Assembly: GCA_900315245.1 (NCBI GenBank)
Contig: OMYJ01000001.1
Span: 1-64,000, forward strand
Source of the DNA: an uncultured Bacteroidales bacterium
Lineage (GTDB): Bacteria; Bacteroidota; Bacteroidia; Bacteroidales; WCHB1-69
Reading direction: 5' to 3'
Length of the DNA: 64,000 bases
Positions 1-8,211 of this stretch are shown here, in pieces. A program made the translations under genes and the position numbers. The number at the start of each line of letters is the position of its first letter. Within the stretch, counting starts at the first letter, position 1. The notes beneath the pieces were generated by a model, which made no database searches, had not been told where the DNA came from, and saw only the letters and a list, made by a program, of their open reading frames with translations.

Positions 1-3000
1 CTGGTTGTCCGCGTTGTCGTTGTTATCGTTGTCCGCGTTGTCGTTAACCAACGCCAATTTCATCGCATGGAATTCCGCGTAGTTGGCCATTTCCGCATCG
101 TCCACGTCTGCCGTGAACGTTTCCACATAACCCTCCATGAACCGCGTCTCCGTCAGAGAATACGGATCGCCTATATTCACATAATTCGCCAAATTCGCCG
201 ACTGGGCCGCCGTGTGCCACTGTTCCAGTTCGTTGAGATCCAACACGGTGTCGGACATGAGGGTGCGCACGGCGGCGTAATAGGTATCGGCGTCCGCATC
301 GGACTGGAACTGGGCCAACGACTTCGGCGTTCCGCCGCCGTCACACAACGTAGAGGCACAGAGGTTGGCTGCAGCTCCAGAATGCGTAGTTACTTGGTAC
401 GGAGAGATAGGAGCACTGCCGTTTCCGTAATAGTAGTTGATAACGTCCATACTCTCGTTAAAGATGCTGCTGGTTATGGTGCTGACGAAAATGTTGTCCG
501 CACCTTTGACGGCTGTACCTTGATTGTGGGCCACATTCGCTTTCGCGGCGATATGAATGTCGTATTTCCCGTTGGAGAAATCGTTGCAGGTCATGCGAAG
601 CCCTGTTGTTCCCGAACCGTTTATCCCTATCACATGGATGCCTTTGGTGAGCTTCTCGAAAACATTGCGGTACAGACTGTTGGCTGTTATTCCTGACGTG
701 CGGACACAGATTCCCGTGCTGTTGTCCGTGGTGAGCGGCGAGGTCGGATAGAAGGTCCTCATGAAGGTGTTCTCCTCCACCGTGTAGCCTGAGCAGCCGT
801 TCAGATAAAGTCCTATGTTACCTTTGGAGGAAACCGGCCATTGGTCCAAATTGAACTGGCAGCGGGTCACTGTGGCGAAATGGTTGCCGTAAATACTGAC
901 CCCGGTGCTGTTGTTGCTGAAACGAACCTCGTCCGTTCTCACGGCGTATGGATTACCCGATGTGTTGACCTCTACCGCAGTGGTAAAGCCCGAGAAAAAG
1001 CTGTATGTGGCATCCGTTTCTGGACATTCACAAACGGATGTGGGTTGCGGCGGACAGTAGGTGTTGACCAACACCCCCGCGTCTGCAGCATATATACCCC
1101 TGCCTTTTCCAAGGGCACTGCTGGTCAGATCGTTGAATGTGCAACCTTCAAATGTCACCCCCTTTACATCCCACAGCCTCACATGTTCGGCGAACGCGGT
1201 GTTGTTGGCGGCAAAGAGGTTGTTGTTATCTTTGGTAAAAGTACAACGGGAAAATGTGGAGTTGTAATTGGCAATGCTACCCGACGGTGTGGTATAGGCG
1301 TACGAATTGATCATCACAGACTGTCGGTTGTTTTTGAAGATGGTGTTGGTGGCAGAGATTATGCCGCCCGTGGTAGCATAGACGGTATCTCCGTGTAATC
1401 CCGTATAGATTCCGCACAATGCATTCTCTATCACCGCACCGTTCCTCAACTCCACCGTTCCTTGAAACTTCTGCAGTTGCCGCTTGGTGCGGTCGCCCAC
1501 CACCTCGATGCCCTGCCACATCTCGTTGGGGCAGGCGGAAGTCAGCGTGCCGCCATCAACCACGAGCTTGCCGCCGGGACGGACGATGAGGCGGGCAGAG
1601 GAGGTACTATGAACAGTTCCCGTAATAGTTAAAGTGGATAAAGGTTCAACCGATATGATCCCGTTGATCGTACACGTATTAGACCATGTTGTATTGGCTG
1701 TAATAGAAATATTGTCGTATAAGGTCTCTGATGAATTGTAAATAACAGTAACCTGCTTCCCCGAAGAGACACTGTCTCCCAAATGATAAACAGTGCATTT
1801 CAGCCATCCAGTGCCAATCCCACTGCCTTTCACCGAAACAGACGCTGCATTTGCTCCAGAAAGAATATGAAGATTCTCTGAACAAGTCCAAGAAAAGGTG
1901 ATGTTACTTATATTTTCATTGTGTGTGTTCTGAACAGTAAATGTCTGTACATCACAATAAGACATCGTTGAACTCCCGTAAATGGAATTGAAAGCAGCCT
2001 TTAGTACTGCACAATGCGCATCCACAAGACCGTAACCCATGTATTTGTTCCATTCGCCGTTAGGATGACCAATCGTATCAGTATAATAGTAAACATCCTT
2101 TCGTGTTTTTTTGGCAGTTTGTTCTATAATGTCACGAACTTCTTGAGACGTAAGATTAGGATTTATGGAAAGCATTAATGCGGCCACTCCTGAGACATGC
2201 GGACAGGCAGCAGATGTTCCCCCAAAAGAAGCGTAGTAATTACCATTTGCTCCTATGCTATGATTGAAACCCTTTGTACCTTGTCTATCTGTGGTATATA
2301 TATTAGTACCGGGAGCCACAACGCTTAACCCTTCTCCGTAGGAACTTCCTGGACGAGCATTATCATCCCACGGGTCGCAGGGTTGTGTTTCCAATATTGC
2401 ATCTACTCTTCCTGACCTCACACCACATCGATCTATTGCTCCTACTGAAATGACATCATATAGGTTTGATGGGTAGTCCACATTTGATGAATTATTGTTG
2501 CCAGATGCAGCAACGATAACGCAACCCTTGCCATTACGTCCGTCTGAGTTGGCATAATTAATGGCTAAATCCAAGATGTCCAAAGGTGTTCCTCCTCCCC
2601 ACGAGACGTTTATGACATCTGCACCGTGTTGGCACGCCCAAGATATACCGTTAGAGGCAGAATAAGGATCATTACCTCCTTCTGAAGAACCACTGTGTAT
2701 AGGAATTATTTTACTATATGGGGCTACACCTACAACACCAATATTATTAGCTGTAGCAGCTATTATCCCAGCGCATGCAGTGCCATGTTTCTCAAAGTTC
2801 CAAACATGATCACCCGCCGAATTGTTACCTGTAGGGTCATAACCCGATAACAAATTCAAAACAAGATCCGGATGAGTCAAATCAACGCCATCGTCAACCA
2901 CAGCCACTTTGATATTGGCACTGCCTTGTGTGATAGTCCAAGCTTTTTCAATATTTATATCTATTCCTAAAGTTCCACCATCTTGCCCCGTGTTTTTCAA

Positions 3001-3615
3001 CGCCCATTGTTGGCTGTAATAGGTGTCATTGCTATTGAAAGCATTTACCCATAAGAAGTTCGGTGCTGAATATTCAAAAAGGCCGCTTTCGAAAAACAGA
3101 TTGGATATATTTATAAGGTCATCATTTCTGTTTCCTACAGATATCACGTATTGTCTTTCAAGCCAAGAGCAAACCTCCGTTATTTGACAAGCATTATCAT
3201 CCAACAATCTCTCAAACTCATCCCATGTGATATTTTCCTTTAATCTCACTATGAACAAGTTTTTCGTATAAAATAAGTGACCGTTACGCTCAAGTGTGTA
3301 ACCGACATTTGCAAAACGGGAGTCAGACATGTATTTGTTCAAAACGGATTCGGGAATAGGAGAGAATGGTTCATAATTTTCGAGCAAAATTTCAGAACCG
3401 TTGGGCTGGTGGTTCCGATAATAATGTAGGTCGTCTGCATGAAGATCATTCTCATTTATTGCGCAGTCCGACTTTAGGGTAAGATGTATGACAGATTTGT
3501 TGTAATGAAGATAAATTTTACCCCCTTGATAGTAATAAAACGTGCTGTCTGTTTGCGCGTTGGCAATAACAACAAATAGTATCAAATAAAGTCCTATAAA
3601 GAATAGCTTTTTCAT
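1..3615 (-). CDS. Secreted subtilisin-like (S8) serine protease with beta-helix-like C-terminal part; partial at left edge
   Basis: The frame opens at the ATG at 3615-3613 and stays open to base 1, so about 1205 codons are present and the C-terminus is missing. A signal peptide (residues 1-20, ending VIANAQ) is followed by a propeptide-like segment. The subtilase domain shows the full triad: Asp241 in VVDDGVDLTHPD, His277 in HGTACAG and Ser468 in GGTSAACPHVSG. The oxyanion Asn is in VAASGNN. After about residue 600 the sequence is Thr/Asn/Gly-rich with short strand-like repeats, as in right-handed parallel beta-helix proteins. The last visible residues are an Asn/Asp/Ala repeat encoded by a 24-base tandem repeat at the window edge. 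A T9SS C-terminal sorting domain may lie outside the window; I cannot see it. The next gene upstream is a lipoprotein only 6 bases away, so the two are probably co-transcribed. The substrate is unknown. Confidence 0.9.
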   Translation of the reverse strand, partial: MKKLFFIGLYLILFVVIANAQTDSTFYYYQGGKIYLHYNKSVIHLTLKSDCAINENDLHADDLHYYRNHQPNGSEILLENYEPFSPIPESVLNKYMSDSRFANVGYTLERNGHLFYTKNLFIVRLKENITWDEFERLLDDNACQITEVCSWLERQYVISVGNRNDDLINISNLFFESGLFEYSAPNFLWVNAFNSNDTYYSQQWALKNTGQDGGTLGIDINIEKAWTITQGSANIKVAVVDDGVDLTHPDLVLNLLSGYDPTGNNSAGDHVWNFEKHGTACAGIIAATANNIGVVGVAPYSKIIPIHSGSSEGGNDPYSASNGISWACQHGADVINVSWGGGTPLDILDLAINYANSDGRNGKGCVIVAASGNNNSSNVDYPSNLYDVISVGAIDRCGVRSGRVDAILETQPCDPWDDNARPGSSYGEGLSVVAPGTNIYTTDRQGTKGFNHSIGANGNYYASFGGTSAACPHVSGVAALMLSINPNLTSQEVRDIIEQTAKKTRKDVYYYTDTIGHPNGEWNKYMGYGLVDAHCAVLKAAFNSIYGSSTMSYCDVQTFTVQNTHNENISNITFSWTCSENLHILSGANAASVSVKGSGIGTGWLKCTVYHLGDSVSSGKQVTVIYNSSETLYDNISITANTTWSNTCTINGIISVEPLSTLTITGTVHSTSSARLIVRPGGKLVVDGGTLTSACPNEMWQGIEVVGDRTKRQLQKFQGTVELRNGAVIENALCGIYTGLHGDTVYATTGGIISATNTIFKNNRQSVMINSYAYTTPSGSIANYNSTFSRCTFTKDNNNLFAANNTAFAEHVRLWDVKGVTFEGCTFNDLTSSALGKGRGIYAADAGVLVNTYCPPQPTSVCECPETDATYSFFSGFTTAVEVNTSGNPYAVRTDEVRFSNNSTGVSIYGNHFATVTRCQFNLDQWPVSSKGNIGLYLNGCSGYTVEENTFMRTFYPTSPLTTDNSTGICVRTSGITANSLYRNVFEKLTKGIHVIGINGSGTTGLRMTCNDFSNGKYDIHIAAKANVAHNQGTAVKGADNIFVSTITSSIFNESMDVINYYYGNGSAPISPYQVTTHSGAAANLCASTLCDGGGTPKSLAQFQSDADADTYYAAVRTLMSDTVLDLNELEQWHTAAQSANLANYVNIGDPYSLTETRFMEGYVETFTADVDDAEMANYAEFHAMKLALVNDNADNDNNDNADNQ

Positions 3616-3621
3616 GACCGA

Positions 3622-4071
3622 TTATTTTTTTTCAAAAACATATTCAGTGATTAAACCAGCATAAGCATGAACACTACCAAAATGGGACAAACTCATGGAA
3701 TTGTCAGATTTGGATGTGATTACAAAGCCTGAATTTTTATCTATTCCATTCACCATGACAAAGTCTGTGTGTACGATAACACTACTGTCAGTTCCAACCC
3801 ATTCCCCATGTTCTCCAATTCTGTAGAGCGTATCATTGGAAATGTAAAATTGTTGGTCATCATGAAAAAGATATTCACGGGAAGTGGGTGAAACGAAATT
3901 TTTCGGTCTGACACTTACATTTGCATGTTGTGCGTTTTCGTCAATATTCAGGATGATTTTCAACCCCTTTTCAGGTTTGCACTCCCACATTGAATCGGCA
4001 GTGTTACATCCTGCTAATAAAATAGTCAGAAAACATCCCACAATTGAAATAATAACGTTATTTTTTTTCAT
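3622..4071 (-). CDS. Small lipoprotein upstream of the S8 protease
   Basis: This is a 149-residue protein with a hydrophobic N-terminal segment and a lipobox (LLAGC) near residue 22, so it is a predicted lipoprotein exported by Sec and anchored in the envelope. I do not recognise a family for the mature part, which is rich in beta-strand-like segments and polar residues. It ends 6 bases before the protease start on the same strand. That spacing suggests one transcript and perhaps a linked role, such as inhibitor, chaperone or anchoring partner; this is inference from position only. Confidence 0.75.
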   Translation of the reverse strand: MKKNNVIISIVGCFLTILLAGCNTADSMWECKPEKGLKIILNIDENAQHANVSVRPKNFVSPTSREYLFHDDQQFYISNDTLYRIGEHGEWVGTDSSVIVHTDFVMVNGIDKNSGFVITSKSDNSMSLSHFGSVHAYAGLITEYVFEKK

Positions 4072-4185
4072 TATTTTTGATTTTATTTTGATATTACTTT
4101 TTCACGCCCCACCTCTCGCGTGGGCATCCTCGGTCTGCCGTTATCATGGCGAAACTACAAAATTCCGCCGCACGCTCGGAATCTT

Positions 4186-4219
4186 GGTGCCGCCGCAGGC
4201 AGACTTATGCGGCGGCACC
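4186..4219. repeat. Strong GC-rich hairpin in the 4072-4275 gap
   Basis: An 11-bp perfect stem (4186-4196 with 4209-4219, arms GGTGCCGCCGC/GCGGCGGCACC) encloses a 12-base loop. Flanking CGGA and TCCG can extend it imperfectly. A second small stem, ATTCCG/CGGAAT, sits just to its left. The gap between the two minus-strand lipoprotein genes is much more GC-rich here than its AT-rich surroundings. It could be a terminator-like or RNA-stabilising element or an interspersed palindromic repeat; no long T-run follows on either strand. Confidence 0.55.
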
Positions 4220-4275
4220 GTTCTTGTCCGAATTTCCAGCGTGTTCTGTTGTTGTGTAAATACTCATCTGTCTTA

Positions 4276-4773
4276 TTAATATAACGGCTTACTTGTAAAA
4301 GACAGCCCCGTGAACGTGAACTGCAGGGTGGTTGTGTCCCGATAGACCAGCTGCGAAGGGATGTTTAAATAGGAATAAACCCCTTCATCTATTTCTAAAG
4401 ACAATGACCTGGCCGGCATGTTGAAAATATCCAGATTTGTCAGGTCGAACGTGTCCAATGTCGTAGCACTTAACACACTGTCCACACTATACTGTAACGA
4501 TATTCGGGACACTTTACGACAGGCATCTCCGACACCTTGACAGTCAATATGCACCATTTTGCCGTTTATTATTACGCACCCAGGACATTTTGAGCCATCA
4601 TGACCCATGGCGCAAATCATCCAATACTGGTTGCCGGTCTTTGCTTCCTCTTTTAACGGAACCAGCCTGTTTTCAGACAAAACAGCGCGATTCTCCTTTC
4701 GACAAGAATGAACCGTAAGAAGCATTGAAAACGCGATCATTCCGCAACAAAAATACAATAAACTTTTTTTCAT
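4276..4773 (-). CDS. Cysteine-rich lipoprotein of unknown function
   Basis: The start is set at the ATG at 4773 (MKKSLLYFCC); longer readings would begin upstream of the -7 box at 4799-4806. It has a signal peptide with a lipobox-like VHSC near residue 24, then a mature part of about 140 residues. The segment CAMGHDGSKCPGC, followed by two further cysteines, could hold metal or form disulfides. The C-terminal half is beta-rich. I do not recognise the family. It is transcribed divergently from the LytTR regulator, which makes it a candidate target of that regulator. Confidence 0.7.
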   Translation of the reverse strand: MKKSLLYFCCGMIAFSMLLTVHSCRKENRAVLSENRLVPLKEEAKTGNQYWMICAMGHDGSKCPGCVIINGKMVHIDCQGVGDACRKVSRISLQYSVDSVLSATTLDTFDLTNLDIFNMPARSLSLEIDEGVYSYLNIPSQLVYRDTTTLQFTFTGLSFTSKPLY

Positions 4774-4798
4774 ACCTGATTTTTTAGTTTTAGTTCGA

Positions 4799-4806
4799 CA
4801 AAAATA
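4799..4806 (-). promoter_or_regulatory. -7 promoter box for the cysteine-rich lipoprotein
   Basis: On the minus strand this reads TATTTTTG, a match to the Bacteroidetes -7 consensus TAnnTTTG, 25 bases upstream of the lipoprotein ATG. A palindrome GTCACC/GGTGAC lies just upstream at 4831-4850. Confidence 0.6.
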
Positions 4807-4881
4807 CTCTTTCAACAAATACTTTATTATGTCACCGGCGAGAAGGTGACGTAATTATGACGAATATTTTACGAAATCAAC

Positions 4882-4919
4882 AAATGACACAATAAACGGA
4901 TTGAAATGACACAATAAAC
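4882..4919. promoter_or_regulatory. Two direct repeats with 22-bp period, candidate LytTR operator
   Basis: The 16-base sequence AAATGACACAATAAAC occurs at 4882-4897 and again, identically, at 4904-4919, a period of 22 bp or about two helical turns. LytTR-domain regulators are known to bind paired direct repeats spaced by about two turns. The pair lies between the divergent lipoprotein gene and the LytTR gene, upstream of both -7 boxes. The assignment is inference. Confidence 0.55.
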
Positions 4920-4965
4920 AATCGGAGTTTTGAACAAATCGCCACTGCATTTGCAAAATTTGTTG

Positions 4966-4973
4966 TATCTTTG
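4966..4973 (+). promoter_or_regulatory. -7 promoter box for the LytTR regulator gene
   Basis: TATCTTTG matches the Bacteroidetes -7 consensus. It lies 56 bases upstream of the regulator ATG and about 47 bases downstream of the direct repeats. Confidence 0.55.
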
Positions 4974-5029
4974 CAATTGCATATTTTAGTTCATCCGTCT
5001 TTCGATTAGTCAACAAATAAATATTTGAA

Positions 5030-6142
5030 ATGAAAGAAAAACAAAAGAATATGGTAATCAAGACCGTCGTGTTAGTGCTTTTCACGGTTTTTGTCATATA
5101 TGTTTTCAGCAACTTCTCCATGCTTAGACCTGCCGCTTGTGGGGCTTTATATAAGGAACCCATTACTGCTGCATTCGTCATTTCGATTTGCTTCCTGAAC
5201 TATTTCGTACTTTTCCCTTTTCTGTACAGGAAGAGAAAGTTCCTCCTATATTTTATTTTCACCCTTGTCAGTGTTTTGATAGCCGCAATCGCAGAAGAAA
5301 TAATTGTTTTTCCGCAAGTTAACGGAATTATTAGTCAAATAAGCAACCTGACTTTACGGGAATACTCCCTATTTCTCACGGTCACACTGCTAATCAGAAA
5401 TCTCTGTTTTATTGGTCTGTTTTTTTTAGTCAGCCTGTTGGAGGACTCCATTCGGGAAAATAAGGAAATCAACGACTCCATGAAAAAAATCAACAAACTT
5501 ATCATTGCAAAATGCGAAAATGGTGAAAATAAAAGTAAGATGATTACAATACCCATAAACGATATTGTCTATTGCCAACAAGAGGAAAACTATACCTATT
5601 TTTTCACAACAGATGGCAACAAATATAACCGGAACTGTTCATTGTCGAGTTTTGCAAAAGAGCTTGGCAACCAACTTGTAGTACGCGTATCCCGAGGTGT
5701 CATTGTGTTCTACAAACACATACATTCCTTCGATGAAAACAATGTATATGTTGAATTTATGGATAAAGAAAAACCTATAGGTTTCCTGATATCCAATACA
5801 TATAAAGAAAATGCGATGAGGCTTCTGAAAAAAAACACCACACCACGACCACACCACGTAAACGAGCTTTTACCGAATCCTGAACAAACACAAGGGATAG
5901 AGGAGACAATACAAATTTCCAACGAGATGGAATCCACCTGTCAAACAGAAGAGAGAAATAACATCCAATTCGTTCTCGATTACATCAACGGACACCCTGA
6001 TTGCAAAGGCACAGATATTGTGCAATTCTGCCGCCTTTCGCTCAGCACCGTCAACCGCATCCTCAAGCAGCTCAGGGACGAAGGCCTCATCGAATACTCC
6101 GGCAGCAAGAAGACGGGCGGGTACCGAGTGATGGAAAGGTAG
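5030..6142 (+). CDS. Membrane-anchored LytTR transcription regulator with C-terminal winged helix
   Basis: This 370-residue protein has three parts. Residues 1-140 contain four hydrophobic segments (about 10-28, 47-66, 70-90 and 112-138), predicted as a membrane sensor. Residues about 165-265 match a LytTR DNA-binding domain (ITIPINDIVYCQQEENYTYF and the later RVSRGVIV). Residues about 315-368 look like a winged helix of the type that ends KKTGGYRVM. It has no receiver domain, so the signal probably enters through the membrane part. It lies at the end of the protease/lipoprotein cluster and has an identical direct-repeat pair upstream, suggesting autoregulation and control of the neighbouring lipoprotein. 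Two DNA-binding modules in one membrane protein is an unusual combination. Confidence 0.85.
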   Translation: MKEKQKNMVIKTVVLVLFTVFVIYVFSNFSMLRPAACGALYKEPITAAFVISICFLNYFVLFPFLYRKRKFLLYFIFTLVSVLIAAIAEEIIVFPQVNGIISQISNLTLREYSLFLTVTLLIRNLCFIGLFFLVSLLEDSIRENKEINDSMKKINKLIIAKCENGENKSKMITIPINDIVYCQQEENYTYFFTTDGNKYNRNCSLSSFAKELGNQLVVRVSRGVIVFYKHIHSFDENNVYVEFMDKEKPIGFLISNTYKENAMRLLKKNTTPRPHHVNELLPNPEQTQGIEETIQISNEMESTCQTEERNNIQFVLDYINGHPDCKGTDIVQFCRLSLSTVNRILKQLRDEGLIEYSGSKKTGGYRVMER

Positions 6143-6166
6143 TGCTTTTTGTTTCCCAATTTTTTG

Positions 6167-6174
6167 TACTTTTG
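6167..6174 (+). promoter_or_regulatory. -7 promoter box for ftsX
   Basis: TACTTTTG lies 17 bases upstream of the ftsX ATG, so the 5' leader is expected to be about 10 bases. It is only 24 bases after the LytTR stop codon. Confidence 0.55.
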
Positions 6175-6191
6175 CGGCGCAAAAATTTACT

Positions 6192-7076
6192 ATGGCAAAT
6201 TATCCGGATTCGATAGACAGAATTACGAAAGCGCGGCTCAGACTCTCCGCTTTCGGTTCCATTTTCAGCATCGCACTCACCATGTTCTTCATCGGGGCGC
6301 TGGCGTTTTTCGCTTTTTTCTCGATGAGGTATCTCCAAAATCTCTCCCAGAAAATCGAAATGGAAGTGCTTTTCTATTCCGACATCAAGGAGGCCGACAT
6401 CGACGCCTTAGAGAAGCAAATCAAGCTGAAACCGTACATCGAGTCGTCGCGGGTGTCGTCGCGGGAGGAAAACACACGCACCGCGCAGCAAATCATCGGC
6501 AGCAATTTCACGGAAGTGATTTCCAACCCCATCAACGCCTCCATCATCATCAACGTGAAACCGCAATACGCCAACTCCGACTCCCTCAACAAAATCTCCA
6601 AAGAGCTGAAACGCAATCCGATAGTGCAAGATGTTGACTATCCGGACTTTATCGTGAAATCCATCAGCAACAACTTCCGCAAAATCCAATGGGTGATTTT
6701 GGCCATCTGTGCTGTCTTCATGGTCATCTCCATGCTTCTGGTTGCCAACTGCATCCGCCTCAATATCTTCGCTAAAAGATTTAACATCAAGAGTATGCTG
6801 TTGGTGGGTGCCACACCCAAATTCGTCCGCAGACCTTTTGTCACCAAAGGAATGCTGCAAGGCATCTGGGGTGGTATCATCGCTGTGGCACTGCTGGCGT
6901 TAACACTGCTTTATGGCAATCGGATGGCACCCGATTTCGTGGACTTTTCGGCCATGCTCTATATTGTCATTATCCTGGCTGCCGTATTTGTGTTCAGCAT
7001 GTTGTTCACCATGCTGATTTCGGCTTTTTCCGTGAACAAATACATCCGGGTAAATGACGAAAGATTGTATCTGTAA
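6192..7076 (+). CDS. ftsX: Cell division protein FtsX
   Basis: This is a 294-residue inner-membrane protein with the FtsX layout: a cytoplasmic N-terminus, a first membrane segment near 22-44, a periplasmic domain of about 120 residues, then three further segments near 168-190, 222-240 and 255-280. FtsX pairs with the ATPase FtsE to activate peptidoglycan hydrolases at the division site. FtsE is not adjacent here. An EnvC-like hydrolase activator, the usual FtsX partner, is encoded at 29226-30536. It is probably co-transcribed with the next three genes. Confidence 0.9.
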   Translation: MANYPDSIDRITKARLRLSAFGSIFSIALTMFFIGALAFFAFFSMRYLQNLSQKIEMEVLFYSDIKEADIDALEKQIKLKPYIESSRVSSREENTRTAQQIIGSNFTEVISNPINASIIINVKPQYANSDSLNKISKELKRNPIVQDVDYPDFIVKSISNNFRKIQWVILAICAVFMVISMLLVANCIRLNIFAKRFNIKSMLLVGATPKFVRRPFVTKGMLQGIWGGIIAVALLALTLLYGNRMAPDFVDFSAMLYIVIILAAVFVFSMLFTMLISAFSVNKYIRVNDERLYL

Positions 7077-7095
7077 ACAACTAATAATCAATATT

Positions 7096-7377
7096 ATGAG
7101 TAACAACACTAATAGTGAGAACACGATCAATGTGAAAGGCAACCGCCCACCATTATTCCGCAAGATGAATTACATCCTTATGGGTGTCGGCGCACTGCTT
7201 CTGCTCATCGGCTACATCTGCCTGGGTGGCGGTGATGTTCCGGACGAGGTCTTCGACGGTGAAATCTTTAACACCCGCCGCATTGTGGTGGCCCCGATTT
7301 TGATTTTCTTAGGTTTAGTGGTTGAAATCGTAGCCATCATGTGGCATCCGAAATCCAAGGAAAACGACAACCAATAA
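7096..7377 (+). CDS. DUF3098 small membrane protein
   Basis: This 93-residue protein has two membrane segments (about 25-43 and 66-85) and matches what I know of the Bacteroidetes family DUF3098, which commonly sits between ftsX and uppP. The start is set at the ATG at 7096; an upstream in-frame ATG lies inside the end of ftsX and would add 14 unlikely residues. The function is unknown. The gene order suggests a link to envelope growth. Confidence 0.8.
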   Translation: MSNNTNSENTINVKGNRPPLFRKMNYILMGVGALLLLIGYICLGGGDVPDEVFDGEIFNTRRIVVAPILIFLGLVVEIVAIMWHPKSKENDNQ

Positions 7378-7386
7378 TCTTTCACA

Positions 7387-8211
7387 ATGAGCTGGTTAGA
7401 AGCATTAATCCTGGGTATCATACAAGGATTGACAGAATTCCTGCCTGTCAGCAGCAGCGGGCATCTCACCATTTTATCCAATCTTTTCGGACTTGAAGGC
7501 GAGTCAAATCTGACGATGATTGTCGTCCTGCACGTGGCTACCGTGCTCAGCACACTGACCATTTTGTGGAAGGAAGTCGTTTGGATTTTCAAAGACCTGT
7601 TCACAAAACAGTCGTGGAAAAGCTATTCCGGATTGAACGAGGGCACTAAATTCGCCATCAACATCCTGATTTCCATGATTCCAGTCGCCATTGTCGGCTT
7701 CTGTTTCAAAGACACGGTGGAAGAGATTTTTGGTTCCGGTTTGCTGATTGTCGGCATCATGCTTTTAGTCACGGCCTCGCTATTGGCTTTTTCCTATTAT
7801 GCAAAACCGCGTCAGCGTGAGGACATTTCCCCGCTGCACGCCTTCATCATTGGCATCGGACAAGCTGTAGCCGTATTGCCCGGACTTTCCCGTTCAGGGA
7901 CAACCATTGCCACGGGACTGCTGTTGGGCAACAAAAAGGAGCGGATGGCGCAATTCTCATTCTTGATGGTCATCCCGCCCGTGTTGGGAGAGGCACTGCT
8001 TGACACCCTCGACATTGCCGAACAGGGATTCAGCACTGCCATGAGCGGCATTTCAGCCGTTTCCTTGGCCGTGGGTTTCATCGCCGCCTTCATCACCGGC
8101 TGCCTGGCCTGCAAATGGATGATCAACATTGTGAAAAAAGGCAAACTGATCTGGTTCGCCATATATTGTGTGATTGTCGGCATCCTCGCCATCATTCTCG
8201 GATTATGTTAA
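7387..8211 (+). CDS. uppP: Undecaprenyl-diphosphatase UppP
   Basis: This 274-residue polytopic membrane protein removes a phosphate from undecaprenyl pyrophosphate to recycle the lipid carrier for peptidoglycan and other surface polymers. It is also known as BacA, a bacitracin resistance factor. Both signature motifs are present: [14 protein letters not shown] near the N-terminus and PGLSRSGTT near residue 158. It follows DUF3098 by 9 bases and overlaps the truB start, so it is part of the ftsX operon. Confidence 0.95.

Follow-up and report, generated by a model that had tools for sequence, protein, structure and literature searches.

Membrane LytTR regulators with 22-bp repeats are already known in Bacteroides, as described in passages of PMC6193735, and CoxC, the subject of passages of PMC11347149, is a membrane-bound LytTR repressor that has three repeats. 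In LytTR regulatory systems, the repeats are placed ~4-11 bp upstream of the -35 element, according to one part of PMC6193735. Given the Bacteroides and CoxC precedents, the idea of such an operator is not new. The repeat described here lies in a window of 64,000 nucleotides (the whole stretch of DNA that was analysed), from an uncultured Bacteroidales bacterium, and is a predicted LytTR-type operator of a membrane-anchored one-component regulator, found in a new architectural and genomic setting.

The repeat and its flanking genes

The 16-mer AAATGACACAATAAAC occurs exactly at 4882-4897 and 4904-4919 on the forward strand, with a start-to-start distance of 22. The original prediction had proposed a direct repeat with a 22-bp period between a regulator gene and a divergent lipoprotein gene, and both points are borne out by the two exact 16-nt copies and by the ORF coordinates (5030-6142 and 4276-4773), the whole intergenic region between the two genes being 4774-5029. 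The features of the locus are as follows.

1-3615, reverse strand: exported subtilase-domain protein of the divergent operon, truncated at the contig start
3622-4071, reverse strand: ORF of a second small lipoprotein
4276-4773, reverse strand: divergent lipoprotein with invariant cysteines C24, C63, C66, C78 and C85
4799-4806, reverse strand: -7-like box of the lipoprotein promoter, TATTTTTG; CAAAAnTA (forward strand) invariant in five loci
4822-4834, reverse strand: weaker copy, TGACATAATAAAG, pointing at the lipoprotein gene and beginning 28 nt before the -7-like box of that promoter
4847-4851: additional TGACG
4858-4871, forward strand: conserved element of the TATGACG type, TGACGAATATTTTA, present in many of the loci inspected
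4882-4897, forward strand: half-site 1 of the putative operator, exact repeat pointing at the regulator
4904-4919, forward strand: half-site 2 of the putative operator, the identical 16 nt 22 bp further along
4966-4973, forward strand: -7-like box of the regulator promoter, TATCTTTG; TATnTTTG invariant in five aligned loci
5030-6142, forward strand: regulator with four transmembrane helices (residues 2-155), LytTR domain (~157-269) and winged helix (~308-367)
6087-6142, forward strand: 3' tail of the regulator gene (SGSKKTGGYRVMER codons), recombination junction, near-identical to the site in genome G006
6192-7076, forward strand: ftsX-like gene adjoining the insertion site on the right

The gene at 6192-7076 presumably encodes FtsX; downstream of the regulator come this ftsX-like gene, a small ORF and a putative UppP-like ORF.

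None of 20,000 dinucleotide shuffles of 4774-5029 (256 nt) contained an exact 16-nt direct repeat within 40 nt, and repeats of at least 14 nt arose in five of 20,000. The two window copies of the 16-mer are the only exact ones in the whole genome of 3,047,119 bases. With two mismatches allowed, four additional places were found, the backwards control pattern giving 2 forward and 0 reverse matches, and the 22-bp pair pattern with up to three mismatches had a single match in the genome and none for the control. The search for further copies, suggested at the outset as a way of defining a regulon, thus returned the window pair alone, and the repeat is not common at unrelated sites. Since the pair is found once in the genome, a wide regulon based on the AAATGACACAATAAAC motif is unlikely, and a regulon defined by repeat copies was rejected. 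No RNA family reached its gathering score in 3000-7500.

When the intergenic regions of five loci were aligned, 75 of the 256 window positions were invariant, including 11 of 12 in the core of half-site 1 (4885-4896) and 10 of 12 in that of half-site 2 (4907-4918). The half-site copies are 21 bp apart in three of the five loci and 22 bp apart in two. Conservation across the five also extends to parts of the lipoprotein-side copy, to TGACG elements and to both -7-like boxes. The pair ends 46 nt upstream of the regulator's -7-like box, and hence ~20 nt before the expected -33 element; no clear -33 element was seen at the regulator promoter. TTTG at -33 was present in only 3 of 15 background promoters. 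A missing -33 as proof of activation was therefore dropped, and the strength of a promoter cannot be judged from its -33, because background promoters mostly lack a clear one as well.

The regulator protein matches LytTR (PF04397, 43.9 bits, cut-off 22.6) as well as MarR_2 (28.4, cut-off 27) and HTH_24 (25, cut-off 21.9); no Pfam or NCBIfam model spanning the whole architecture was matched. Its AlphaFold2 model (mean pLDDT 89.9) has long N-terminal helices at 2-28, 42-66, 71-104 and 109-155, followed by the LytTR beta domain and then by the winged helix at ~308-367. The second DNA-binding domain and four membrane segments of the original prediction are thereby confirmed, and with transmembrane segments and a DNA-binding domain in one chain the protein is a transmembrane transcription regulator. 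Foldseek recovered the LytTR fold (3d6w, TMt 0.75, E 3.6e-5, and also ComE, 4cbv; both E <= 0.001) and, less significantly, MarR-like and Z-alpha-like winged helices. A LytTR match (E <= 0.01) is present in all 64 members of alignment A2, and the strongest residue conservation of the soluble part falls in the winged helix. A conserved LRPxA...KE loop, with R33 invariant and E43 nearly invariant, is located around the TM1-TM2 loop. An even number of membrane helices and a cytoplasmic C-terminus would make this loop periplasmic, and we infer that the signal is periplasmic too.

The divergent lipoprotein has an N-terminal hydrophobic stretch and cysteine, and matched no Pfam family; its relatives gave scattered weak matches, the best with E 0.0047, in 2 of 27. 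No PDB entry was matched by fold at E <= 0.001 or by sequence profile at E <= 1. Five cysteines are invariant across the family, in which the N-terminal half varies and the C-terminal half is strongly conserved. The second lipoprotein probably belongs to the same operon.

Upstream arrays in an expanded regulator family

A single uncultured Bacteroidales genus harbours an expanded set of these regulators. Among the matches listed, 35 of 36 genomes of the window's genus, including its own, had family members (up to 11 per genome), and 1 of 24 genomes from other families of the order had a regulator match (E 6.7e-6). Profile searches matched 8 of 295 genomes of the order, three of them from the window's genus and only one other nearly full-length, and, among 395 genomes of the phylum, the window's own genome alone; five or six candidates were scored per genome in these searches, so copy numbers there are lower bounds. 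In a separate set of named relatives, the 260 pattern stretches included 183 coding for a relative, and the best 80 of these were kept, corresponding to 79 loci. These come from metagenome assemblies of uncultured Bacteroidales or Bacteroidetes, and the sources, where an animal or organ is stated, are ruminant, deer and horse.

The lipoprotein accompanies the regulator. Among the 43 lipoprotein matches with at least 100 of 165 positions covered, at least 39 are divergent beside a regulator among the matches listed, by a hand count; one of the others is convergent and three are without a listed regulator, one of which (L198) has an unlisted divergent regulator-like ORF when the locus is read. 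At L199 (G006:C109), the lipoprotein and a regulator-like match are adjacent yet convergent, by coordinates. The partners at 55 nonredundant named loci comprised 30 cysteine lipoproteins, 21 other exported proteins (assigned by a crude signal-peptide rule, several being doubtful), two proteins of neither kind and two loci with no candidate. Nine partners not of the lipoprotein type were searched: a type IX secretion sorting tail is present in two, together with SprB repeats in one of them; a FISUMP domain and fn3 domains occur in one partner each, and five had no match. Concerted evolution of the lipoprotein tails within genomes was considered and rejected, the within- and between-genome medians being nearly equal (19 within-genome pairs). 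One lipoprotein, from G013, looks recombinant.

The repeat survey covered 79 nonredundant loci, left from 147 regulator genes after removal of those at >=80% identity or with <320 nt upstream, and counted direct repeats matching at >=11 of 14 positions. Period 21 was found upstream in 33 of the 79 (1.8 expected) and period 22 in 15 (2.1 expected); the remaining periods occurred in 0-9 loci, with the exception of period 12 (13 loci). In the subset below 50% identity, the counts were 11/32 for period 21 and 4/32 for period 22. Coding-window controls gave 1/79 for either period, and downstream control windows gave 20/176 for period 21, 2/176 for period 22 and at most 17 for other periods. Tandem sequence such as AACCTTAAACC, seen between genes downstream of regulators, may add to the downstream period-21 counts. 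As 42 of the 79 loci reach 11/14 at period 21 or 22, a clear pair is not universal.

Divergent promoters were aligned on a -7-like box, TAnnTTTG, at 70 loci. Units 21 bp apart emerged, the nearest starting ~30 nt before the box, with a period-21 identity of 0.56 over 7 nt, the boxes having been chosen by position alone, some of them wrongly (at the window's own divergent promoter, the match chosen falls inside the lipoprotein gene). Across the family, the divergent unit overlaps the -33 region. The weaker copy at 4822-4834 corresponds to the promoter-proximal unit of these arrays and is the single clear copy on the lipoprotein side of the window. In the gene-facing orientation, arrays of the same locus matched each other at 7.80 of 10, versus 7.20 for other loci (69 loci, boxes likewise chosen by position), and 7.80 was reached by none of 10,000 permutations; in the wrong orientation, the values were 7.04 and 6.82, and the former was reached by 8 of 10,000. 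The two promoter-facing arrays of one locus carry a common locus-specific motif. The motifs differ among loci of the window's genome (TGACACAATAAA at the window, GTGAAGGGATAAA at contig C8 and GAGACGGAATAAA at contig C10), and some of them resemble one another, so insulation is at most partial.

The spacing of 22 bp, the position, the four related loci, the family-wide period of 21 or 22 and the uniqueness in the genome support the predicted LytTR operator, and the repeat is very probably the binding site of the neighbouring membrane-bound LytTR regulator. The earlier account holds for the repeat and the operator; it had not included the inverted lipoprotein-side copy, the regulator family or the recombinant locus.

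Junctions at the window locus

The window regulator is 26% identical to the regulator beside ftsX in G006 (locus L132). The two sites agree almost completely from ~50 nt before the stop codon, at the SGSKKTGGYR codons, with 0 mismatches in the first 204 nt after it. L132 in turn has 96% protein identity to a regulator encoded elsewhere in the window's genome, G000 (contig C8, L048). DNA identity per 50 nt between L132 and L048 is 80-100%, mostly 90-100%, across the lipoprotein (the part inside the G006 contig, which starts within that gene), the operator and the regulator, and drops to 62% over the gene's last 40 nt and to 28-50% beyond. Of 22 genus genomes, only G000 and G006 have the regulator tail upstream of ftsX (520 nt examined; 116 nt in G009); the other 20 do not. 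G010 and G014 have an ABC-transporter-like gene next to ftsX, at distances of 78 and 77 nt. The window's genome has this gene on contig C19, behind what by eye appears to be the 3' end of an exported-protein gene. The C-terminus of the subtilase protein resembles, also by eye, that protein end on C19, which is possibly the far side of the window insertion.

Junctions in the same parts of the two genes recur at other sites. G000 and G010 have a 5.2-kb right flank in common at the C8 site (92.9%), beginning inside the regulator 3' end, and their left sides do not match except for 190 nt of lipoprotein tail. The left flanks of G000:C16 and G013:C50 are 82% identical, ending inside the lipoprotein gene ~300 nt from its stop, and no match was found beyond that point. 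Among 54 pairs with similarity in the downstream flank, the regulators are <=30% identical in 13, 42-61% in 15 and >=70% in 26; plain descent would explain the last group. Of the 13, several have weak flank similarity (68-74%), match out of register or come from two genes on a single contig. In the clear cases, the similarity begins near the stop codon: L018/L132 (89%), L144/L158 (90%), L136/L154 (94%) and L070/L102, which is short (252 nt, 85%).

In G015, a 787-bp block (L200 933-1719, and L201) occurs at two places with 97.5% identity and unmatched outer flanks; its two ends are a lipoprotein tail and a regulator tail, and no regulator core was found inside it. Three contig pairs, each from the same assembly (L088/L089, L091/L092 and L093/L094), have end overlaps of exactly 141, 141 and 99 nt and diverge inside the winged-helix 3' end, as at assembly-graph forks; this is as expected if the sample contained a single gene body with either of two 3' ends. 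High DNA identity of the regulator 3' ends among six paralogues of the window's genome was looked for and rejected (mean ~0.6, highest 0.80 per segment).

The window locus is recombinant; the junctions computed are one-sided, and two-sided replacement at one site was not seen outright. Regulator, operator and lipoprotein appear, from these comparisons, to travel together as a swappable unit in an uncultured Bacteroidales genus. With junctions within the conserved 3' parts of both genes, each reader would travel with its own sites. We tentatively extend this, as something possible rather than probable, to a genus-wide set of insulated, exchangeable cassettes, each with a membrane reader, private operator arrays and a signal-related lipoprotein, swapped by 3' recombination. 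If true, cassette swaps among chromosomal sites would put existing exported-protein operons under new signals. This suggests that gut Bacteroidales may rewire the control of surface proteins via swaps of whole units rather than point changes. Because reader and site have changed together from locus to locus, the regulator/operator pairs also make up a natural library from which the recognition codes of LytTR and the winged helix could be worked out.

Proposed control and relation to known systems

We consider it highly likely that the repeat is the operator of the adjacent LytTR-winged-helix regulator, bound for autoregulation together with a weaker site on the lipoprotein side, and that core, operator and lipoprotein are exchangeable. 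Copies of the regulator would bind both 22-bp-spaced half-sites before their own promoter and also the weaker copy before the divergent lipoprotein operon; with binding at both promoters, a membrane signal would govern how strongly both the regulator and the lipoprotein operon are expressed. Binding and direction of control are what we infer here. Positive autoregulation would be favoured by analogy with LytTR regulatory systems, and the lipoprotein promoter may be either activated or repressed, since the site there extends over the -33 region. Exchange would involve the regulator core, the operator and the lipoprotein core as one unit.

That the repeat instead belongs to an unlinked regulator or to a DNA structure, and lies near a LytTR gene by chance, is very improbable: LytTR binding is a prediction from sequence, but the pair is unique in the genome, is conserved together with the regulator in related loci, and has a motif that varies among loci yet agrees between the two arrays of one locus. 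The C-terminal winged helix (MarR/Z-alpha-like) might read the pair, with LytTR on the constant AT-rich part or the TATGACG-like element; the winged helix holds the most conserved residues of the soluble part, and its partial Mantel correlation with operator divergence is above that of LytTR (0.36 vs 0.18 at 37 loci; 0.32 vs 0.19 in a repeat test at 35 loci). It is, however, favoured in only 79% of subsamples, shared ancestry confounds the comparison, and a direct repeat of 21-22 bp is the LytTR signature in the passages drawn on from PMC11347149 and PMC6193735. We rate the winged helix as the less probable reader of the pair.

As to direction, it is quite possible, if somewhat less likely than not, that the regulator represses the lipoprotein promoter in the manner of CoxC rather than activating it. 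The family's divergent unit overlaps -33, much as the CoxC operator overlaps -35 (PMC11347149, in part), whereas the forward pair sits upstream of its promoter, the repeats of the Bacteroides LRS-like systems, 11 bp upstream of the promoter, are presumed activating in the relevant passage of PMC6193735, and the lack of a clear -33 is common to most background promoters (TTTG in 3 of 15). Cassette exchange could also be an artefact of assembly or binning, given that the named relatives are metagenome-assembled genomes and that several contigs end inside these genes, including the G006 contig that starts within its lipoprotein gene. We think this improbable: the junction lies ~6 kb into the 478-kb window contig and ~1.7 kb into the 137-kb G006 contig, the same cassette occurs at another G000 site >5 kb inside a 75-kb contig, and G000:C8 and G010:C29 have the 5.2-kb right flank in common, yet the G010 regulator is 30% identical to the G014 copy, which is itself 95% identical to the G000 regulator.

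Other membrane-linked regulators resemble the window system in part. In the HdrRM/BrsRM LytTR regulatory systems, direct-repeat operators and autoregulation are alike, but a soluble regulator is paired with a separate membrane protein gene, whereas the window regulator is itself a membrane protein (PMC6193735, in passages); the forward pair of the window also lies farther from its promoter than HdrRM-type repeats, outside their distance from -35. CoxC (MHYT-LytTR, Afipia carboxidovorans) likewise has a membrane sensor fused to LytTR in one protein, and CoxC/RcoM use three direct repeats about two helical turns apart, like the three-unit divergent arrays of the relatives; CoxC differs in its MHYT/7-TM sensor and in repressing cox genes, and no winged helix is described for it in those passages of PMC11347149. 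Transmembrane transcription regulators, which are abundant in Bacteroidia, also combine a membrane part and a DNA-binding domain in one protein; LytTR appears there twice, in a single passage on Alphaproteobacteria, and the passages concerned do not mention a LytTR-winged-helix architecture (PMC10269533). Literature titles and abstract openings, the broadest topics being sampled in small part, named no LytTR-winged-helix membrane regulator or such cassettes.

A close likeness is to the Bacteroides LRS-like systems, as partly described in PMC6193735, with transmembrane segments ahead of the LytTR domain, presumed autoregulation and 11-bp repeats separated by 11 bp (a 22-bp period) upstream of a TATCTTTG promoter. 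Their partner, NfeD/DUF2154 in the same passages, had no match among the four proteins searched, namely the regulator, the two lipoproteins and the subtilase protein. Compared with these systems as described there, the window has an extra C-terminal winged helix, a divergent exported partner and arrays at two promoters, and its family shows expansion in one genus and cassette exchange. What sets this system apart from prior work is the winged helix, together with arrays in front of both promoters and the exchange of entire units.
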